Below, in pieces: positions 2,364 to 25,830 of a stretch of DNA of 30,068 nt; within the stretch, counting starts at the first letter, position 1; each line of letters opens with the position of its first letter. Made by a program: the position numbers and the translations under genes. Source of the stretch: a virus; IMG/VR virus record IMGVR_UViG_3300035670_000961, positions 1 through 30,068 of that record, one strand, 5' to 3'. The notes beneath the pieces are model-generated. The model saw nothing but the letters and a program-made list of their open reading frames with translations, did no database searches and was not told the DNA's origin.

Positions 2364-4076
2364 ATGACAACACGCCAATACTCGTCCCGTAGCCAGCAGT
2401 CAACACTGACTAGCGCTATTACCGCAGGTGCTGCCACAATGACTGTGGTATCAGGCACTGCTCTGCTAGGTGGTGTTACTATTCCTTCAGGCAGAACCTA
2501 TACATTGGTTATAGATGTAGATACTGCTCTTGAAGAAATTGTAGATGCTACGGCGGTATCTACTAATACCTTTACAATAACCAGAGCCATTGATGGCTCA
2601 TCTGCACAGTCACACTCAGCAGGTGCAGTAGTAAGACATATGGCTATCGGTAGAGATTACCGCGATGCCAACCTACATACACAGGCTTCTGCTTCCTACA
2701 ATGATGGTAGCGGTAACGCTCAGTCTCTACACGGTATTGCATCTGGTGAAGGTGATGTAGTAGGAACTCTTAAGACACAGACTCTTACTAACAAGACTCT
2801 TACCAGCCCAACAATTTCTAACCCTACAATTACTGGAACATCTGGTGTTGAAACCAGCATAGTATTTGAAGGCTCTACGGCTGATGCCCACGAGACTACC
2901 CTGACTGTAGTTGACCCTACACAGGACAATACAATTACCCTACCTAATACCTCAGGTACGGTAGTTATTGCTGATGCTACTCAGACCCTGACCAATAAGA
3001 CTTTAACTAGCCCTACCATCTCTGGTAGCCCAGTCATTACTGGCCTATCTAGCGCAGGTATGGTTGCTTCCTCTGCTACCCCTAAAGATTATGTAGATGC
3101 CATCCTAGGCTCTGCTACGGCTGCAGCAACCTCAGCAGCCAGTGCTGCTACCAGTGCTGCTAGTGCTGCAACCAGTGCTACAAGTGCCTCTAATAGCGCC
3201 ACAGCCTCGGCAACGAGTGCCTCAGCAGCAGCCACAAGTGCAACCAGCGCTGCTACCTCAGCCACTTCTGCAGCCGCCTCTGCTACGGCAGCGGCTACTA
3301 GCGCTACTAGCGCAGCAGCAAGTGCAACGGCTGCCGCTACTTCTGCTACATCGGCAGAGACAAGTGCTACATCTGCTTCTAACTCAGCAACTGCATCGGC
3401 TACTTCGGCAAGTGCTGCTGCTACTTCGGCAACTTCGGCAGCAGCCTCAGCAACGGCTGCAGCAACTAGCGCATCATCTGCATCAGCATCTGCTACCGCA
3501 GCAGCCACATCAGCAACTTCTGCTGCTGCTAGTTATGACCAGTTTGATGATAGATATCTAGGTAGCAAGTCCTCTGACCCTACTTTAGACAATGATGGTG
3601 GAGCGCTGCTAACTGGTGCCTTGTATTACAATACAGTTATTTCTGCTATGAAAGTTTACTCAGGTAGCGCTTGGCAATTAGTAGCACCTGATACATCTAA
3701 CTTTATTGACAAGACAATCCTTACAGCCAAGGGTGCATTAATCTCTGCAAGCGGTGCATCTACTCCTTCAGTGCTGACAGTAGCCTCAACTAATGGTTAT
3801 GTTCTGGCAGTCAACTCAGCCACCACAACAGGGCTTGAGTGGGTAGTAAACGCAGCCGATGGTGTTCAGACTGTAACCTCTGGCAATACAACAAGAATTG
3901 TTGTTGGTGGCACTACCGCTGACCCAACAATAGATTTAGCGACAACTGCAGTAACTGCTGGGACGTACAGCCCAGCATCAATAACAGTTGACGCATACGG
4001 TAGACTTACTGCTGCATCAACAGCAGCAATAGATACAGAATCAGTTGAAATCAAAACCCTTATGGGTGTTCTCTAA
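2364..4076 (+). CDS. Tail fibre protein with Ala/Ser/Thr repeat shaft (570 aa)
   Basis: Residues 1-125 form a beta-rich N-terminal domain, probably the tail attachment part. Two copies of TLTNKTLTSPTIS follow (near 140 and 208), a repeat typical of phage tail fibres. Residues about 248-390 are an almost uninterrupted Ala/Ser/Thr repeat (SATSAAASATAAATSAT-like units), expected to make a long trimeric shaft. Then comes YDQFDDRYLGSKSSDPTLDN, a motif I know from many fibre proteins, and a C-terminal beta domain of about 150 residues, likely the receptor-facing or chaperone-like end. The start is ATG at 2364, 9 nt after the adaptor stop. Apparent long frames on the opposite strand across the repeat are low-complexity artefacts. 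Confidence 0.88.
   Translation: MTTRQYSSRSQQSTLTSAITAGAATMTVVSGTALLGGVTIPSGRTYTLVIDVDTALEEIVDATAVSTNTFTITRAIDGSSAQSHSAGAVVRHMAIGRDYRDANLHTQASASYNDGSGNAQSLHGIASGEGDVVGTLKTQTLTNKTLTSPTISNPTITGTSGVETSIVFEGSTADAHETTLTVVDPTQDNTITLPNTSGTVVIADATQTLTNKTLTSPTISGSPVITGLSSAGMVASSATPKDYVDAILGSATAAATSAASAATSAASAATSATSASNSATASATSASAAATSATSAATSATSAAASATAAATSATSAAASATAAATSATSAETSATSASNSATASATSASAAATSATSAAASATAAATSASSASASATAAATSATSAAASYDQFDDRYLGSKSSDPTLDNDGGALLTGALYYNTVISAMKVYSGSAWQLVAPDTSNFIDKTILTAKGALISASGASTPSVLTVASTNGYVLAVNSATTTGLEWVVNAADGVQTVTSGNTTRIVVGGTTADPTIDLATTAVTAGTYSPASITVDAYGRLTAASTAAIDTESVEIKTLMGVL
3108..3530 (+). repeat. Degenerate GCT/GCA-ACT-AGT codon repeat in the tail fibre gene
   Basis: About 420 nt of near-periodic Ala/Ser/Thr codons. 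Units such as AATSAT and AAASATAAATSAT recur many times at protein level while the DNA varies at synonymous sites. The DNA thus avoids perfect direct repeats while the protein keeps them, as expected for a selected coiled or trimeric shaft. Unit number may differ between relatives through recombination. Confidence 0.8.
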
Positions 4077-20565: not shown

Positions 20566-20874
20566 TTAACTTACAGACGCTACTTCAATCTGTGTGTATG
20601 GAGCACGGCGCTCAGCATTATCAATGCCAGGACGGCGGTCAAAGCGTGTCACTAACTTACCAGTTAGATTAACAACTTCTGAAACTCCATCGTTCCAAGT
20701 AAGGTTCCCAAGAATTAACTTGGCTTGGTCATTTGTAAATACCAATGGCATTGTGAATGTACACTTACCATCAGCATCTCGTTGTGTTAAATTGGCAGTG
20801 ATAACCTTGTAGTTACCAGCACCACGCTCCTGAACATTCTTAATATATCCAGTTGCTTCTATTTTGTTATTCAT
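20566..20874 (-). CDS. OB-fold-like, possible ssDNA-binding protein (102 aa)
   Basis: I start it at ATG 20874 (MNNKIEATGYIKNVQERGAG), preceded by AAAGGAGAC; an upstream ATG at 20970 would run through a hairpin. The pattern of five beta strands (IEATGYIKNV, YKVITANLTQ, FTMPLVFTN, VVNLTGKLVTRFD, YTQIEVASVS) with a helix in the middle is that of an OB fold. Phage ssDNA-binding proteins often have this size. The identification is structural guesswork, without a signature motif. It sits among replication-linked genes. Confidence 0.6.
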   Translation of the reverse strand: MNNKIEATGYIKNVQERGAGNYKVITANLTQRDADGKCTFTMPLVFTNDQAKLILGNLTWNDGVSEVVNLTGKLVTRFDRRPGIDNAERRAPYTQIEVASVS

Positions 20875-20900
20875 TTTAGTCTCCTTTATATTGTTTATTG

Positions 20901-20937
20901 AGCGGTGGCCCGCCTCGCTTGTCGGGCGGGCACCGCT
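20901..20937. promoter_or_regulatory. GC-rich hairpin between two early genes
   Basis: AGCGGTG plus CCCGCC (20901-20914, one bulged G) pairs with GGCGGG plus CACCGCT (20925-20937). On the + strand it is followed by TTTTT, like a terminator against antisense transcription. In the leftward RNA it is followed by CAATAAACAATATAAAGGAGAC, the ribosome binding site of the OB-like gene. It follows the same layout as the hairpins at 20523 and 21804. Confidence 0.68.
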
Positions 20938-20951
20938 TTTTAACCATCTCT

Positions 20952-21386
20952 TTATAAACATTCTTGGCAACCCGTTTTCTTGAGTCGCACAAGATTACAA
21001 CTCGGACACACCATCTCATAGAAATGAATGACCGAACGCTGTTCATCTTCATCTAGGTCAAAGATATGCTTGCCTAGAAAGTAAGTACTTGGACATCTAT
21101 CTGCCAAGTTGTAGGTAGCAGGAGCAAACTCATCTCTTATCCTGCCATCACTCTGACGGGTATGGCTACCTACCCATTCAGTTGCAGAAGGTGGTGTTGT
21201 TAGGTCAGTAATAACATCACCTTCAGATAGACGCTCATCAGCCCTGTGATTCCAGGCTAACTCATCTACTCTAGCCTCATCGGACTCGTCACAAACTCTG
21301 CACTGAACATCATAATCTGCGATAGTCATACAGTCATAACATTCATTTGTAACAGAGATACCATTAGATATTTCTATTGTTTGCAT
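20952..21386 (-). CDS. Cysteine-rich hypothetical protein (144 aa)
   Basis: Cys pairs occur at both ends: NECYDCMTIADYDVQCRVCD near the N-terminus, and MVCPSCNLVRLKKTGCQECL at the C-terminus. They could make one or two zinc sites. The middle is acidic and has the segment RDEFAPATYNLADRCPSTYF. AGGGAGGAAATAAA precedes the ATG at 21386, which overlaps the NADAR gene's end. It is the third gene in the DUF4326-NADAR series, so a shared role is possible. Family not recognised. Confidence 0.65.
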   Translation of the reverse strand: MQTIEISNGISVTNECYDCMTIADYDVQCRVCDESDEARVDELAWNHRADERLSEGDVITDLTTPPSATEWVGSHTRQSDGRIRDEFAPATYNLADRCPSTYFLGKHIFDLDEDEQRSVIHFYEMVCPSCNLVRLKKTGCQECL

Positions 21387-22306: not shown

Positions 22307-22537
22307 TTATATACACTCTCCATTTGAGAGCGCTTTCCTCTCACCACAGGCTGGCAAGGCAGTCAAGTGCGAGCCTACTTCTGCTATCAGAAGCGACCAC
22401 TTGACGGCCTGTCTGCCAGGCTGTGGTATTTTTGAGCGCTCGTTTACAATGACAGTTGGACTCGTGTAACGCCCAAGAACTGTCAAAGAATCAATGACCA
22501 CTCTGGTCACAGATACGATATCTTTTAACTTAGCCAT
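22307..22537 (-). CDS. Doubtful 76-aa frame within a highly structured region
   Basis: The frame starts MAKLKDIVSVTRVVIDSLTV and ends KALSNGECI. It is open for 76 codons and could be a small protein, but no ribosome binding site precedes the ATG at 22537. About half of its length is occupied by one nested hairpin (22328-22441), with further short stems GACCA/TGGTC and GACAGTT/AACTGTC. The DNA may therefore be a structured RNA or regulatory element in which the open frame is incidental. I report it with low confidence. Confidence 0.35.
   Translation of the reverse strand: MAKLKDIVSVTRVVIDSLTVLGRYTSPTVIVNERSKIPQPGRQAVKWSLLIAEVGSHLTALPACGERKALSNGECI
22328..22441. promoter_or_regulatory. 114-nt nested hairpin
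   Basis: Five stems stack in order: GAGCGCT/AGCGCTC (22328-22334 with 22435-22441), ACCACAG/CTGTGGT (22343-22349 with 22421-22427), CTGGC/GCCAG, AGGC/GCCT, GTCAAGTG/CACTTGAC (22362-22369 with 22398-22405), and an inner CTTCTG/CAGAAG with a CTAT loop. The structure can form on either strand as RNA or as a DNA cruciform. It lies upstream of the zinc-ribbon/DUF4326/NADAR genes and may be their leader. Confidence 0.7.
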
Positions 22538-22580
22538 CTGACAGCGCTGACTATGTATTAGCGCTCAGGGCTATCTGCAC

Positions 22581-22679
22581 ATTGGCTATTGGCTAGTCCG
22601 TGTTGCCTCCGTGGTTGTCGGAGCAGACCTGCTTGCAGACGCTGCTCAAATAGTTGGAGCACGGACAGCCATAGCCAAT
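22581..22679. promoter_or_regulatory. 99-nt bulged hairpin
   Basis: ATTGGCTAT pairs with ATAGCCAAT (22581-22589 with 22671-22679), GGCT with AGCC, and GTCCGTG with CACGGAC (22596-22602 with 22660-22666). Inside, CTCC/GGAG and GAGCAG/CTGCTC form further stems. It lies between the terminator at 22710 and the next leftward frame, with no gene of its own. Candidate leader, ncRNA or part of an origin. Confidence 0.65.
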
Positions 22680-22709
22680 ATCTCAGCCACTAGTGCGGAG
22701 ATAATAAAA

Positions 22710-22735
22710 AAGGGCTGGCAAAAACACCAGCCCTT
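22710..22735 (-). terminator. Intrinsic terminator of the 22742-23068 gene
   Basis: In leftward RNA AAGGGCTGG pairs with CCAGCCCTT (22735-22727 with 22718-22710), followed by a run of T (TTTTTTATTATC). It begins 6 nt after the stop of the OB-like gene. Transcription of genes further left must therefore restart, probably within 22.5-22.7 kb, or read through. Confidence 0.88.
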
Positions 22736-22741
22736 CTTTAT

Positions 22742-23068
22742 CTAGTTTACAGACTCAACCATAAAACTAGTCGTCCAGCCCTTATCAGTTTTGCTGGTGC
22801 GAAACCAGCCAGAAACATTAGCACGAGGGCGTTGCTCTGTAGTTTCTGGTGTCTCGCCACCGACAAGTTCAATTGAGTGCTCCTGCTGCTCCAAAGAGCG
22901 GAGGTGTCCAACTGCTGCTGTGAAGCATAGAAATGGGAGGGAAGCCTGAAACTTGCCCTCATCATTTCTGAGAATGATTACGCCCTTTGCGTAATCCTTG
23001 CCTGTCTTGGCGGTCTTGATTTCAAGACCAGCAAGTTCGGCTGACGAAAATGATACTTCGTGTTTCAT
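22742..23068 (-). CDS. Small OB-like/ssDNA-binding-like protein (108 aa)
   Basis: The protein begins MKHEVSFSSAELAGLEIKTA and has KDYAKGVIILRNDEGKFQAS, LPFLCFTAAV, a variable acidic loop, then RANVSGWFRTSKTDKGWTTS and FMVESVN. The alternating strands and the GWF-x5-K-GW pattern suggest an OB-type beta barrel, perhaps a ssDNA-binding protein; no signature proves it. AGGTAG precedes the ATG. It is the first leftward gene after the switch region and is followed by a strong terminator, so it is probably transcribed alone and early. Its DNA contains several perfect stems and is mirrored by a non-coding copy at 23182-23560. Confidence 0.72.
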   Translation of the reverse strand: MKHEVSFSSAELAGLEIKTAKTGKDYAKGVIILRNDEGKFQASLPFLCFTAAVGHLRSLEQQEHSIELVGGETPETTEQRPRANVSGWFRTSKTDKGWTTSFMVESVN

Positions 23069-23074
23069 TTTCTA

Positions 23075-23175
23075 CCTGCTTTCTGCCACACACGGTCGGA
23101 GTGGCTGAAGCCGCCCAAAGCACGCCGCAGGTGTGCTAGGCTTCAAAGCCACGGAGCCGTGTGACAGAGAGCAGG
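23075..23175. promoter_or_regulatory. Palindromic centre between the two arms
   Basis: CCTGCTTTCTGCCACACACGG (23075-23095) faces CCGTGTGACAGAGAGCAGG (23157-23175); GTGGCT and GAAGCC (23101-23112) face GGCTTC and AGCCAC (23139-23152); AGCAC/GTGCT (23119-23123 with 23133-23137) forms the tip. The leader of the leftward gene is thus repeated as a leader-like sequence on the + strand. I see no convincing -35/-10 pair here, though divergent promoters would be expected. Confidence 0.72.
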
Positions 23176-23181
23176 TGCTCT

Positions 23182-23560
23182 AGAAAATGAAACCGAAGTG
23201 CTCCATCATTTTCGGCCCGAACGCGGCTGGTCGCCGAAATCAGGCTTGACCGCCTAGACGGGCAGTCTCAGGATTTCGCAAAGACGCGAAATCAGGCGAC
23301 AGAAATGCTGAGGTTAGAGCAAGTTTCACCCTCACAGGGCTATGCTCACAGCGCTCCAGCAGTTTGACTCCTACGCTGGAGCAGCGCACTCAAGCAGAAC
23401 TTGAGTGGCGAGCACCGCTCCAGAAACTCAGGGCAACTCTGCCCTGTGCGTTTCTGGCAGGTGAGCCAGCATAACTGTAGGGCGCAGATGGCTAGTGGTT
23501 GAGGCTGGAACAGATAATCAGGAGGGCAGTTTTAGCCAGCCTGCCAGATTATCGGAGCAG
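23182..23560 (+). pseudogene. Non-coding inverted copy of the 22742-23068 gene
   Basis: The + strand copy keeps the gene's order from its leader and start (AGAAAATGAAAC) to its terminator-like end (GCCAGCC, ATTATC). Small indels break the frame: ATG at 23187 reads only 20 codons to TGA. The copy is more GC-rich and contains perfect stems: GATTTCGC/GCGAAATC (23272-23293), GCTCCAGC/GCTGGAGC (23353-23382), CACTCAAG/CTTGAGTG (23387-23407), CCAGAAAC/GTTTCTGG (23420-23457) enclosing CAGGGCA/TGCCCTG. It is either a decayed gene copy or a structured RNA/DNA element derived from it. Confidence 0.72.
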
Positions 23561-23640
23561 CCTAGCCAGCGCACCAGATAGGTCAGCCAGATAGATAGCC
23601 CTGACAGCGCTATCCAGACAGCACTGTCCACGCTATCAGC

Positions 23641-23675
23641 AAACAGGATGGGGTCTAGATGACCCCAGACTGTTT
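23641..23675. promoter_or_regulatory. Hairpin closing the structured region
   Basis: AAACAG/CTGTTT (23641-23646 with 23670-23675) encloses GGGGTC/GACCCC (23650-23655 with 23661-23666). The T-run after the stem is short, so terminator activity is uncertain. It marks the right edge of the GC-rich segment; AT-rich DNA follows. Confidence 0.6.
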
Positions 23676-23744
23676 AATACTGGCTGAGAGTTATATAGTA
23701 CACACCGATAAAGATTTTTCCGTACAGAGCCTATGCCCCTGTTC

Positions 23745-23764
23745 TGTCCTATTTTGTCCTATTT
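23745..23764 (+). repeat. Tandem 10-bp direct repeat TGTCCTATTT
   Basis: Two exact, adjacent copies of TGTCCTATTT lie at 23745-23754 and 23755-23764, one helical turn apart. This spacing suits binding of a dimeric regulator or initiator on one DNA face. The second copy overlaps a candidate -35 box of a rightward promoter. Confidence 0.65.
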
Positions 23765-23783
23765 AGACTGTTATCTGTATAAC
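23754..23783 (+). promoter_or_regulatory. Candidate promoter for the terminase-side late genes
   Basis: TTGTCC (23754-23759) and TATAAC (23778-23783) resemble sigma-70 boxes with an 18-nt spacer, 160 nt before the terminase start. The overlap with the tandem repeat would let a repressor or activator act here. This is pattern matching only. Confidence 0.4.
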
Positions 23784-23836
23784 ACTTTTGTTATAAACCG
23801 TTCGGAATGGCTGTTTGAACGGATTAATAGATAGTA

Positions 23837-23881
23837 GGGACTATTTATAGTCCCGTGCAGTAGCAAGCCTTTAGGGCTTGC
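23837..23881 (+). promoter_or_regulatory. Two short perfect hairpins in the terminase leader
   Basis: GGGACTA/TAGTCCC (23837-23843 with 23848-23854) and GCAAGCC/GGCTTGC (23863-23869 with 23875-23881) lie back to back, followed by 65 nt to the likely terminase start. A further CCGTTC/GAACGG stem lies just upstream. They could stabilise the late mRNA or regulate read-through. The rest of 23676-23946 holds no gene that I can see. Confidence 0.55.
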
Positions 23882-23946
23882 GTTACAGACTGTATCTCTA
23901 TTTGTATCTGACAGGCTGTATAGACTATTGCAGATGGGACAATACT

Positions 23947-25830
23947 GTGACTTTTCAGAAAGGTAATAACCCTAGGACAAAGGCTATGGCTGAAGCCAAG
24001 GCCAAAGTCTTGGCCCTGGTATCTGAGGGTATGCCAGTGCAGAGGGCTATGGAACAGTTGGGCAAAAAGCCAGACACTGTCCGTATTTGGATTTCCAGGG
24101 ATAAACAGTTTGCCCAGGATTTGGCTGACGCCAAAGAAAGCGCTAAAGAGAACTCCCTAAAAGCGCTAGGGGTAGCCCGTGAGGATGTATCATTCCCACA
24201 GTTCTCTGAGATGTTTCTGGACCAGAGGGTTTTCCCTCACCATCAGGACTGGATTGACCTACTAGAGGGTAAAGACCCTAGTTGGCTCCACCCTAATATG
24301 ATTTACGAGCCTGGCGATAAACACCGCCTCCTTGTAAACGTGCCGCCTGAGCACGCTAAGTCCACCGTGATTACGGTGAATTACTCTACCTACCGCATCG
24401 CGCTAAATCCCAATGTTAGAATCATCGTAGTTTCTAAGACGTTAGTCAAAGCACGGGAATTCGTGTACGCAATAAAGCAAAGGTTAAGCCACCCGCGCTG
24501 GTTGAAGTTGCAAACAACTTTTGGACCAGAAGGGGGATGGAAAGAAGACTCTGATACCTGGCGTGTTGATACCGTCTATCTGGGTAACGATGCTCGTGAT
24601 TCATCTGAAAAAGACCCGACTATCCAGGCACTCGGTATGGGGGGTCAAATCTATGGTGCCCGTGCTGACTTGATTATTCTTGATGACTGTATAACCACAG
24701 CCAATGCTCACGAACACGAGAAGCAGATTAACTGGCTACAGAAAGAAGTTATTACTCGTTTGGGTAAGAACGGCAAGTTGCTGGTAGTAGGAACCCGAAT
24801 TGCGCCGAATGACTTTTATAAAGAACTCCGTGACCCGAAGCATTGGTCAAGCGGCAAAAGCCCATTTACGTATATGGGTATGCCTGCTGTTCTACAGTAT
24901 GCTGATAAGCCGAAAGACTGGACTACGCTCTGGCCTAAATCGGATGTTGCCTGGGATGGCGATGCGGACACCCCAGATGAGGAGGGACTATATCCTAAGT
25001 GGGATGGTCCGACCCTTGCACGGCGCAGAGGCGAAGTTACTCCGTCTACGTGGGCTCTTGTATATCAGCAAGAAGATGTAACTGAAGATTCTATATTTCC
25101 ACCTGAATTGGTTCAGGGTTCTTTAAATGGAATGCGTAAGCGAGGTCCGCTAAGACCTGGCGCTGCAGGACACCCTGCTCAAGTTGAAGGTTACACAGTA
25201 ATTGGGTTTGACCCTGCTATGGCAGGGCACGCTGCTTTTGTGGCTATGACTTATAACAGAATGGACGGAAAGATTTATGTGTTGGACTGCCTAAATATGG
25301 CAGAGCCCAACCCACAAAAGATTAGGCAAGCAATTGAAGAGTTTGTTCAGAAGTATAAACCGCAGGAACTCCGCGTTGAAATCAACGCCCATCAAAAAGC
25401 CTACGCCCTTGACTCAGACTTACAACAATGGCTGGCATCTTATGGTGTTCGCCTCAATGCTCACTTCACTGGAAAAAACAAATGGGACACAAACTTTGGT
25501 GTCGCATCTATGTCCACACTTTTCGGAACGACAAGCAATGGCAAGCATCAAAAGAACAACACCATTGAACTCCCTAGCACTGAAGGTTCTGAAGGACTTA
25601 AGGCTTTAACACAACAGTTAATTACTTGGAAGCCTGAGACTAGAGGTAAGACTGACTGCGTGATGGCGCTGTGGTTTGGCGTTATTAGATGCCGTGAGTT
25701 TATGCAACAGAATTCTGTGGTGCAAAGGTATGCCCATAATCGTTGGGCTACAAGAGCGCAAGCACAGAAACGCTACAGCGTTAATCTAGATGAGATGGTT
25801 GCCGAACAATGGCAACAAACATACGGATAG
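23947..25830 (+). CDS. terL: Terminase large subunit with N-terminal HTH (627 aa)
   Basis: I place the start at GTG 23947 (GGGA 10 nt upstream); the frame extends back to TTG 23878, but those codons fall in the leader and look unlike protein. Residues about 15-65 form a helix-turn-helix (EGMPVQRAMEQLGKKPDTVR), usually found in small terminase subunits. The ATPase has VPPEHAKST as its Walker-A-like loop and LIILDD as Walker B. The nuclease domain has GFDPAMAGHAAF, the acidic EINAHQ strand and KTDCVMALW with a conserved Asp. It cuts and pumps genome DNA into the prohead through the portal encoded next. Confidence 0.92.
   Translation: MTFQKGNNPRTKAMAEAKAKVLALVSEGMPVQRAMEQLGKKPDTVRIWISRDKQFAQDLADAKESAKENSLKALGVAREDVSFPQFSEMFLDQRVFPHHQDWIDLLEGKDPSWLHPNMIYEPGDKHRLLVNVPPEHAKSTVITVNYSTYRIALNPNVRIIVVSKTLVKAREFVYAIKQRLSHPRWLKLQTTFGPEGGWKEDSDTWRVDTVYLGNDARDSSEKDPTIQALGMGGQIYGARADLIILDDCITTANAHEHEKQINWLQKEVITRLGKNGKLLVVGTRIAPNDFYKELRDPKHWSSGKSPFTYMGMPAVLQYADKPKDWTTLWPKSDVAWDGDADTPDEEGLYPKWDGPTLARRRGEVTPSTWALVYQQEDVTEDSIFPPELVQGSLNGMRKRGPLRPGAAGHPAQVEGYTVIGFDPAMAGHAAFVAMTYNRMDGKIYVLDCLNMAEPNPQKIRQAIEEFVQKYKPQELRVEINAHQKAYALDSDLQQWLASYGVRLNAHFTGKNKWDTNFGVASMSTLFGTTSNGKHQKNNTIELPSTEGSEGLKALTQQLITWKPETRGKTDCVMALWFGVIRCREFMQQNSVVQRYAHNRWATRAQAQKRYSVNLDEMVAEQWQQTYG

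Follow-up and report, generated by a model that had tools for sequence, protein, structure and literature searches.

A bulged one-kilobase phage hairpin with a predicted SSB-like gene as one arm: compensatory selection strongly supported, an antisense role possible

Why does a phage carry a gene and a non-coding, mirrored copy of that gene head to head, in a layout that can fold from a single strand into a hairpin of ~1 kb? The question is raised by a virus record of 30,068 bases (IMG/VR IMGVR_UViG_3300035670_000961), called the window below. Bacteria and phages are expected to cleave or eliminate long duplexes of nearly complementary sequence, yet here one is conserved across distinct lineages. 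The locus lies where gene directions part: to its left, genes that include an exonuclease and a DnaB-like helicase point leftward, and to its right, the terminase large subunit gene, the portal gene and further genes point rightward. A sequence-only reading of the window had placed the quasi-palindrome at 22559-23611, which proved essentially right, with weak pairing extending from ~22541 to ~23628. The features discussed below are as follows.

22318-22442, plus strand: second, smaller conserved hairpin (co-varying outer stem, 12 two-sided changed pairs, 9 sequences)
22541-23112, plus strand: left arm of the giant hairpin, with its core at 22713-23112 and weaker pairing outside it (arm alignment, relatives, co-variation)
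22578-22684, plus strand: third, imperfect hairpin of ~100 bases in the left outer arm, tip CTG-CTTG-CAG (comparison with close relatives)
22704-22741, either strand, 3' of g108: terminator-like hairpin with T-runs on both strands (plus-strand match from a scan, minus-strand T-run read from the sequence)
22742-23068, minus strand, inside the left arm: g108, a 108-aa gene for a predicted OB-fold, SSB-like protein (intact ORF, AlphaFold2, Foldseek, VIA)
23113-23138, plus strand: apex, closing to C23126-GCA-G23130 (in relatives C(GAA)G, G(CUUG)C or G(CCUG)C)
23139-23628, plus strand: right arm, a non-coding, mirrored and bulged copy of g108, core 23139-23541, weaker out to 23628 (alignment, relatives, co-variation)
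23651-23829, plus strand: terminase leader, conserved in phages with and without the hairpin; right neighbour, outside the module
23878-25830, plus strand: terminase large subunit gene (phrog_38, E 1.8e-67), the fixed neighbour

The hairpin, its gene and its conservation

The two arms match far beyond chance, as the description of a mirrored gene had implied. Local alignment of the reverse complement of the left arm with the right arm gave a score of 205, compared to a mean of 21 (sd 2.2, maximum 30) in 200 dinucleotide shuffles. The cores pair 22713-23112 with 23139-23541, and the 26-nt spacer between them forms a stem with a 3-nt loop that closes the apex. The arms are ~70% alike; the remaining ~30% includes indels. 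Two further details of the sequence-only reading held up: the g108 reading frame is intact in one arm, and the other arm contains frame-breaking indels and no open g108-like frame. Closer inspection revealed that these indels are mostly regular, one-sided bulges of 4 to 6 nt at conserved positions, not random decay. Read on the plus strand, the left arm is the exact antisense of g108. The giant hairpin occurs once in its record.

The product of g108 is predicted to be an OB-fold protein resembling bacterial SSBs. An AlphaFold2 model built from ten relatives (pLDDT 85.4) has the strand-strand-strand-helix-strand-strand topology of an OB fold. Its best Foldseek matches are bacterial SSBs (E 7.2e-5), and VIA superposed it on a bacterial SSB with a Z of 10.7 over 90 residues (rmsd 2.1), PriB tying with SSB within 1 Z unit. 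The alignment of 10 relatives has 31 invariant columns. At the sequence level, none of 10 members matched a Pfam family (the SSB family model included) even with E values up to 1 allowed, PHROG gave no match for the protein of the window, and a PDB sequence search returned nothing significant. The acidic C-terminal tip typical of SSBs is absent from the window's protein, which ends in ...SFMVESVN; one clade has a longer, more acidic tail ending in EPAEDSSL.

Relatives were collected in two ways, via g108 and via the neighbouring terminase gene, the latter serving as the anchor for finding phages that lack the g108 module. The same layout, which the sequence-only reading had proposed to look for in related phage contigs, was found in many of them. 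The mirrored arm is present in every g108-containing contig with enough flank, down to ~55-60% protein identity. In the most diverged one (L123, g108 at 610-912, 50% identity) it is only partial, with pairing in some stretches; this locus is possibly a recombinant between lineages or a decaying copy. None of the terminase relatives without g108 has a giant inverted repeat. The hairpin is present if and only if g108 is present, barring two loci (L010/L104) of one contig whose end, ~65 bases beyond the start of g108, falls in the apex of the hairpin. Since contigs break there, the element is probably under-counted in public data. The mirror tracks g108 at a fixed site, and therefore, the module can be regarded as an accessory unit of gene plus mirror. 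All known cases come from IMG/VR contigs; a search of 50,697 annotated phage records turned up no similar DNA or protein, and the genome_contigs collection contained no relative. Among catalogued terminases, the closest (43-62% identity) are those of Streptomyces phages and of a Caudovirales genome that carries no annotation. This kinship makes an actinobacterial host likely, and the host group is probably the freshwater actinobacteria.

Co-variation between the arms gives strong support to the view that the hairpin is kept by compensatory selection on both of them. In a codon alignment of 16 lineages, with seven non-overlapping lineage pairs used for independent counts, 301 differences in the coding arm fell at sites that are paired in the two genomes compared, and 232 of them (77%) were compensated to a Watson-Crick pair in both; such percentages are somewhat inflated, as arm alignments favor matches, with the identical blocks of 6 to 14 bases leaving little room for it. 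When the non-coding arm was taken from the other lineage as a control, only 24 of 602 matched. All lineage pairs together gave 6417 of 7701 compensated differences, these pairs not being independent of each other. An example is lineage L031, in which g108 starts with GTG instead of ATG; its non-coding arm, where nothing starts, has the same change. Near-identical genomes, by contrast, mostly show a change in one arm without its counterpart in the other. Together with the compensation between lineages, this pattern points toward slow compensatory selection and not gene conversion. The earlier argument that persistence suggests a function thus gains weight, and the copy is no relic: most coding-arm changes are answered in the opposite arm, across distinct lineages.

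What is conserved is not a perfect duplex. The longest perfect helix is 10 to 14 bp in every one of the 16 lineages, whereas random placement of the same number of interruptions gives a mean longest run of 19 to 24 bp (p < 0.005 in 15 of 16 lineages, the exception being L113 with p 0.11). Besides indels of 1 to 2 nt, bulge sizes peak at 4 to 6 nt and drop sharply at 7. Hence the comparisons strongly support a pairing that is cut by 4- to 6-nt bulges such that no helix exceeds about one turn. In one clade of eight lineages (L043, L022, L062, L105, L109, L111, L114 and L120), the bulges lie mainly in the coding arm, about every 8 to 10 bp as opposed to roughly every 20 bp in the other clade; in the window and L012 clades they lie mainly in the non-coding arm. 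Regular spacing was significant (p < 0.01) in 10 of 16 lineages. Bulges occupy alignment columns 63, 108, 201, 284 and 312 in all or nearly all of the eight lineages and recur at columns 17, 55, 73 and 115 in the window clade. Their composition is mildly pyrimidine-rich (53-61%, compared to 46-50% in paired bases), and GCT and CTC are frequent within them. Being mild, this skew makes the bulges weak evidence for SSB binding, and the idea of a single protein-binding motif in the bulges was weakened likewise. Together, the helix ceiling and the uniform bulge size read like a rule that lets a long duplex of RNA persist inside bacteria, and it is now testable which reader (RNase III, dsRNA-sensing defence or ribosomes) sets the limit.

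The folded strand and its possible action on g108

Which strand folds can be read from the mismatches between the arms. In 12 lineages, mismatches that give G.U on the plus strand outnumber those that give G.U on the minus strand (A.C on the plus strand) by 114 to 37 (binomial p 1e-10, with sites taken as independent); the bias is strong in most lineages and nil in the window clade (7:7). Furthermore, in all but one of the 16 lineages the plus strand has the better minimum free energy, its lead reaching 75 kcal/mol, and its apex is capped in most lineages by G(CUUG)C, C(GCA)G, C(GAA)G or G(CCUG)C, loops of known stable types whose minus-strand versions are not known for special stability. Taken together, wobble asymmetry, folding energy and apical loops indicate that the folded strand is the plus strand, antisense to g108. 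A DNA cruciform involves both strands and predicts symmetric wobble; the bidirectional origin that the sequence-only reading had considered is therefore not supported. Divergent promoter control lacks support too: the apex folds into a closed stem capped by 3 nt, nothing AT-rich and promoter-like was apparent in the 26-nt spacer, and a promoter consensus scan gave no match there. The third suggestion, an RNA derived from the gene, fits best with the plus-strand wobble, the plus-strand fold and the co-variation. The wobble bias marks a folded plus strand and does not distinguish RNA from single-stranded DNA; all in all, a hairpin formed by the plus strand is strongly supported, and its form is probably RNA, with single-stranded DNA as the alternative. 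The consensus scan, which covered one promoter type, revealed no convincing plus-strand promoter left of the hairpin and one weak match inside the right arm (23161-23188). Folding of either arm alone gave strong local structure on both strands (13 lineages in one comparison), and therefore, arm-local hairpins may matter as well. The right-arm counterpart of the terminator-like hairpin at 22704-22741 has no T-run.

Whereas the structure and the selection on it have good support, what we say of the function is an educated guess. That the plus-strand structure acts on g108 at all seems to us a little short of an even bet. The reading we prefer, with a probability of roughly 0.35, is a self-masked antisense RNA switch that controls the SSB-like g108. 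According to this model, a rightward RNA would be an antisense regulator of g108, and the right arm would mask its antisense arm through a deliberately imperfect duplex. The bulges would shield the long duplex from the host RNase III and other dsRNA readers and, at the same time, could serve as entry points at which the g108 mRNA or a helix-destabilizing g108 protein opens the hairpin. The freed antisense arm would then form a perfect and much more stable duplex with the g108 mRNA, and the gene would be turned off. If it is the g108 protein that opens the hairpin, negative feedback would result: much SSB unmasks the RNA that stops SSB synthesis. Consistent with this, the calculated heteroduplex of the left arm and the g108 mRNA has −780 to −846 kcal/mol, compared to −348 to −467 kcal/mol for left and right arm, an advantage that any perfect complement would have and that serves as a consistency check only. 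If the model is right, the coding arm would have to satisfy two codes together, that of the amino acids and that of base pairing, and, with the protein as the opener, a feedback loop would be built from one gene and its mirror. A point against the antisense switch is that an ordinary antisense RNA needs no full-length masking arm.

The main rival, which we consider unlikely but ahead of all others, is a scaffold, sponge or decoy: the plus-strand hairpin RNA would act as itself, its bulges offering repeated binding sites to the g108 protein or to a different one, or it would titrate a host defence that reads dsRNA. In this view, g108 would be linked to the hairpin as its partner protein. The strict linkage, the regular bulges at conserved positions, their GCT and CTC triplets and the strict helix ceiling are all in line with such a role; there is also a precedent, a structured phage RNA from the terminase region that is sensed by a CBASS cyclase (PMC10686824). 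However, the bulge sequences are not one motif, the bulged side switches between clades, and a scaffold or decoy leaves unexplained why one arm is the g108 gene itself.

Next comes a single-stranded DNA structure, an improbable solution in our view, in which the plus strand folds during replication or recombination and serves as a priming or origin site beside the SSB-like gene. C(GNA)G tips are very stable DNA mini-hairpins, and G.T wobble is tolerated in DNA as well. In addition to the SSB-like neighbor, the proximity of a genome end would fit: in related Streptomyces phages, the terminase gene lies ~700 bases from the genome end, which may be nearby here. Nevertheless, related phages that lack g108 have the terminase leader as well and do without the structure, so that it is no general origin or packaging site, and the length of 1 kb and the coding arm are unlike known single-stranded DNA origins.

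Still less probable is a self-repressing mRNA, that is, a g108 transcript that is read leftward from beyond the right arm and whose leader, the mirror arm, hides the start codon. The apex offers no obvious room for a promoter, the start codon of g108 in the window sits within a perfect 13-bp block, and a TATATA-like stretch was read from the sequence to the right, on the minus strand (~23691-23698). But the wobble bias favors the opposite strand, the minus-strand fold is the weaker one in 15 of 16 lineages, and the apical loops lose their stable form on the minus strand.

Very unlikely is an inverted duplication that decays neutrally or whose arms are kept alike by gene conversion or template switching. 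The right arm is clearly derived from the gene, but neutral decay predicts no co-variation, which conflicts with the 77% of compensated differences, and gene conversion predicts simultaneous two-sided changes and erased bulges, whereas changes in close pairs are mostly one-sided and the 4- to 6-nt bulges persist. An assembly fold-back or chimera is scarcely credible: the contig that stops at the apex (L010/L104) indicates that the hairpin does disturb assembly, but the same junction and layout recur in many independently assembled, diverged contigs from different metagenomes, and a fold-back would give identical arms.

Likeness to known systems

The sequence-only reading knew of no named system that fits, and indeed the element belongs to no Rfam family: nothing in the window or in eight relatives exceeded the gathering threshold of Rfam 15, and at E up to 1 there were two sub-threshold matches, in the terminator region only. 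Likewise, the open-licence literature yielded no described phage RNA of a comparable kind. The locus represents a real, conserved and apparently undescribed kind of element. That it stands for an undescribed class of viral RNA, a ~1-kb hairpin with a coding gene as one arm that acts as an antisense switch opened by the gene's own SSB-like product, is a slightly more tentative proposal than the switch itself. ROOL, GOLLD and OLE are large ornate RNAs, some of them carried by phages; they are multi-branched rather than one giant hairpin and have no protein gene in an arm. A foldback transposon or MITE was also considered and rejected, since copies at several genomic places were not found; each locus has a single giant hairpin, and its site does not vary.

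CopA of plasmid R1 is an antisense RNA of under 100 nt that regulates a replication gene through its leader. According to the titles of two 1995 papers, cited in two later articles, its bulged-out nucleotides are needed for rapid target binding and protect it from RNase III (PMC4485353, PMC4878617), and in these terms, CopA and the hairpin are alike as cis-encoded antisense sequences with a bulged stem. Both features are found here: complementarity on the opposite strand of the same locus, given by the left arm, and a stem with conserved bulges. Unlike CopA, the antisense sequence here covers a protein gene from end to end and comes with a full-length masking arm of its own. A second likeness is to plant MIRNA genes and long hairpin RNAs, which arise by inverted duplication of their target (PMC3237417). 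There, too, an inverted gene copy gives rise to a hairpin with an arm antisense to the parent gene; in our case, the parent gene itself is one arm, and the helices are kept too short for dicing. We know of no Dicer or Argonaute in such, likely actinobacterial, hosts. Whether bacterial viruses use gene-derived hairpin RNAs as plants and flies do can now be tested.

Gene 32 of T4, a phage SSB, represses its own mRNA (PMC535899); here, too, a phage SSB is controlled in its synthesis at the RNA level, and the control region contains a structured element. The T4 element is a pseudoknot of ~28 nt plus an unstructured operator, with no 1-kb hairpin or antisense, and g108 did not belong to the gp32 family by any test made. 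The two precedents, CopA bulges and T4 SSB, would come together in a helix-destabilizing protein that unwinds an antisense RNA directed at its own mRNA. The cabRNA of staphylococcal phages, ~400 nt long, derives from the sense strand within terminase genes (PMC10686824). It resembles the presumed hairpin RNA in its structured, partly double-stranded nature and in its place in or beside the terminase genes of a phage, and this precedent shows that structured RNA beside phage terminase genes can matter to host defence. However, the hairpin lies upstream of terL, not in it, and cabRNA has no mirrored gene and no reported compensatory evolution.

Neighboring elements

A packaging or cos site was dropped as a main line, since terminase relatives without g108 keep the leader and have no giant inverted repeat. 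At the right edge of the locus, a hairpin at 23643-23673 (AAACAG...GGGGTC...GACCCC...CTGTTT), flanked by a TTATATAGTAC stretch, is conserved in the sampled g108-containing phages; it sits within the leader common to phages without g108 and is possibly a leftward early promoter with a 5' stem-loop, or a terminator.

On the left, the hairpin at 22318-22442 has the core AGTCAAGTGCGAG ... GCGACCACTTGACGG, overlaps the 3' half of a 76-aa minus-strand ORF and probably belongs to the same structured region as the giant hairpin; in the L043/L105/L114 clade, its site holds a plain hairpin, GCACTGCCCTG...CAGGGCAGTGC. L034/L027 lack the hairpin at 22578-22684, and L031 and L047 have it with another branching pattern but invariably the same tip, which suggests a fast-changing or mobile hairpin. 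A conserved GGACTCGT motif left of the giant hairpin is not enriched in the window.

Farther left (20566-21386) lie two minus-strand genes, of 134 and 144 aa and unassigned to a family, whose good conservation is confined to g108-containing phages; phages without g108 have versions that are ~30% identical or none that was detected. Since these two genes track g108, the accessory unit may exceed g108 alone. Finally, a segment of the tail-fibre gene (3001-3500) has a GC content of 56%, compared to ~42% around it.
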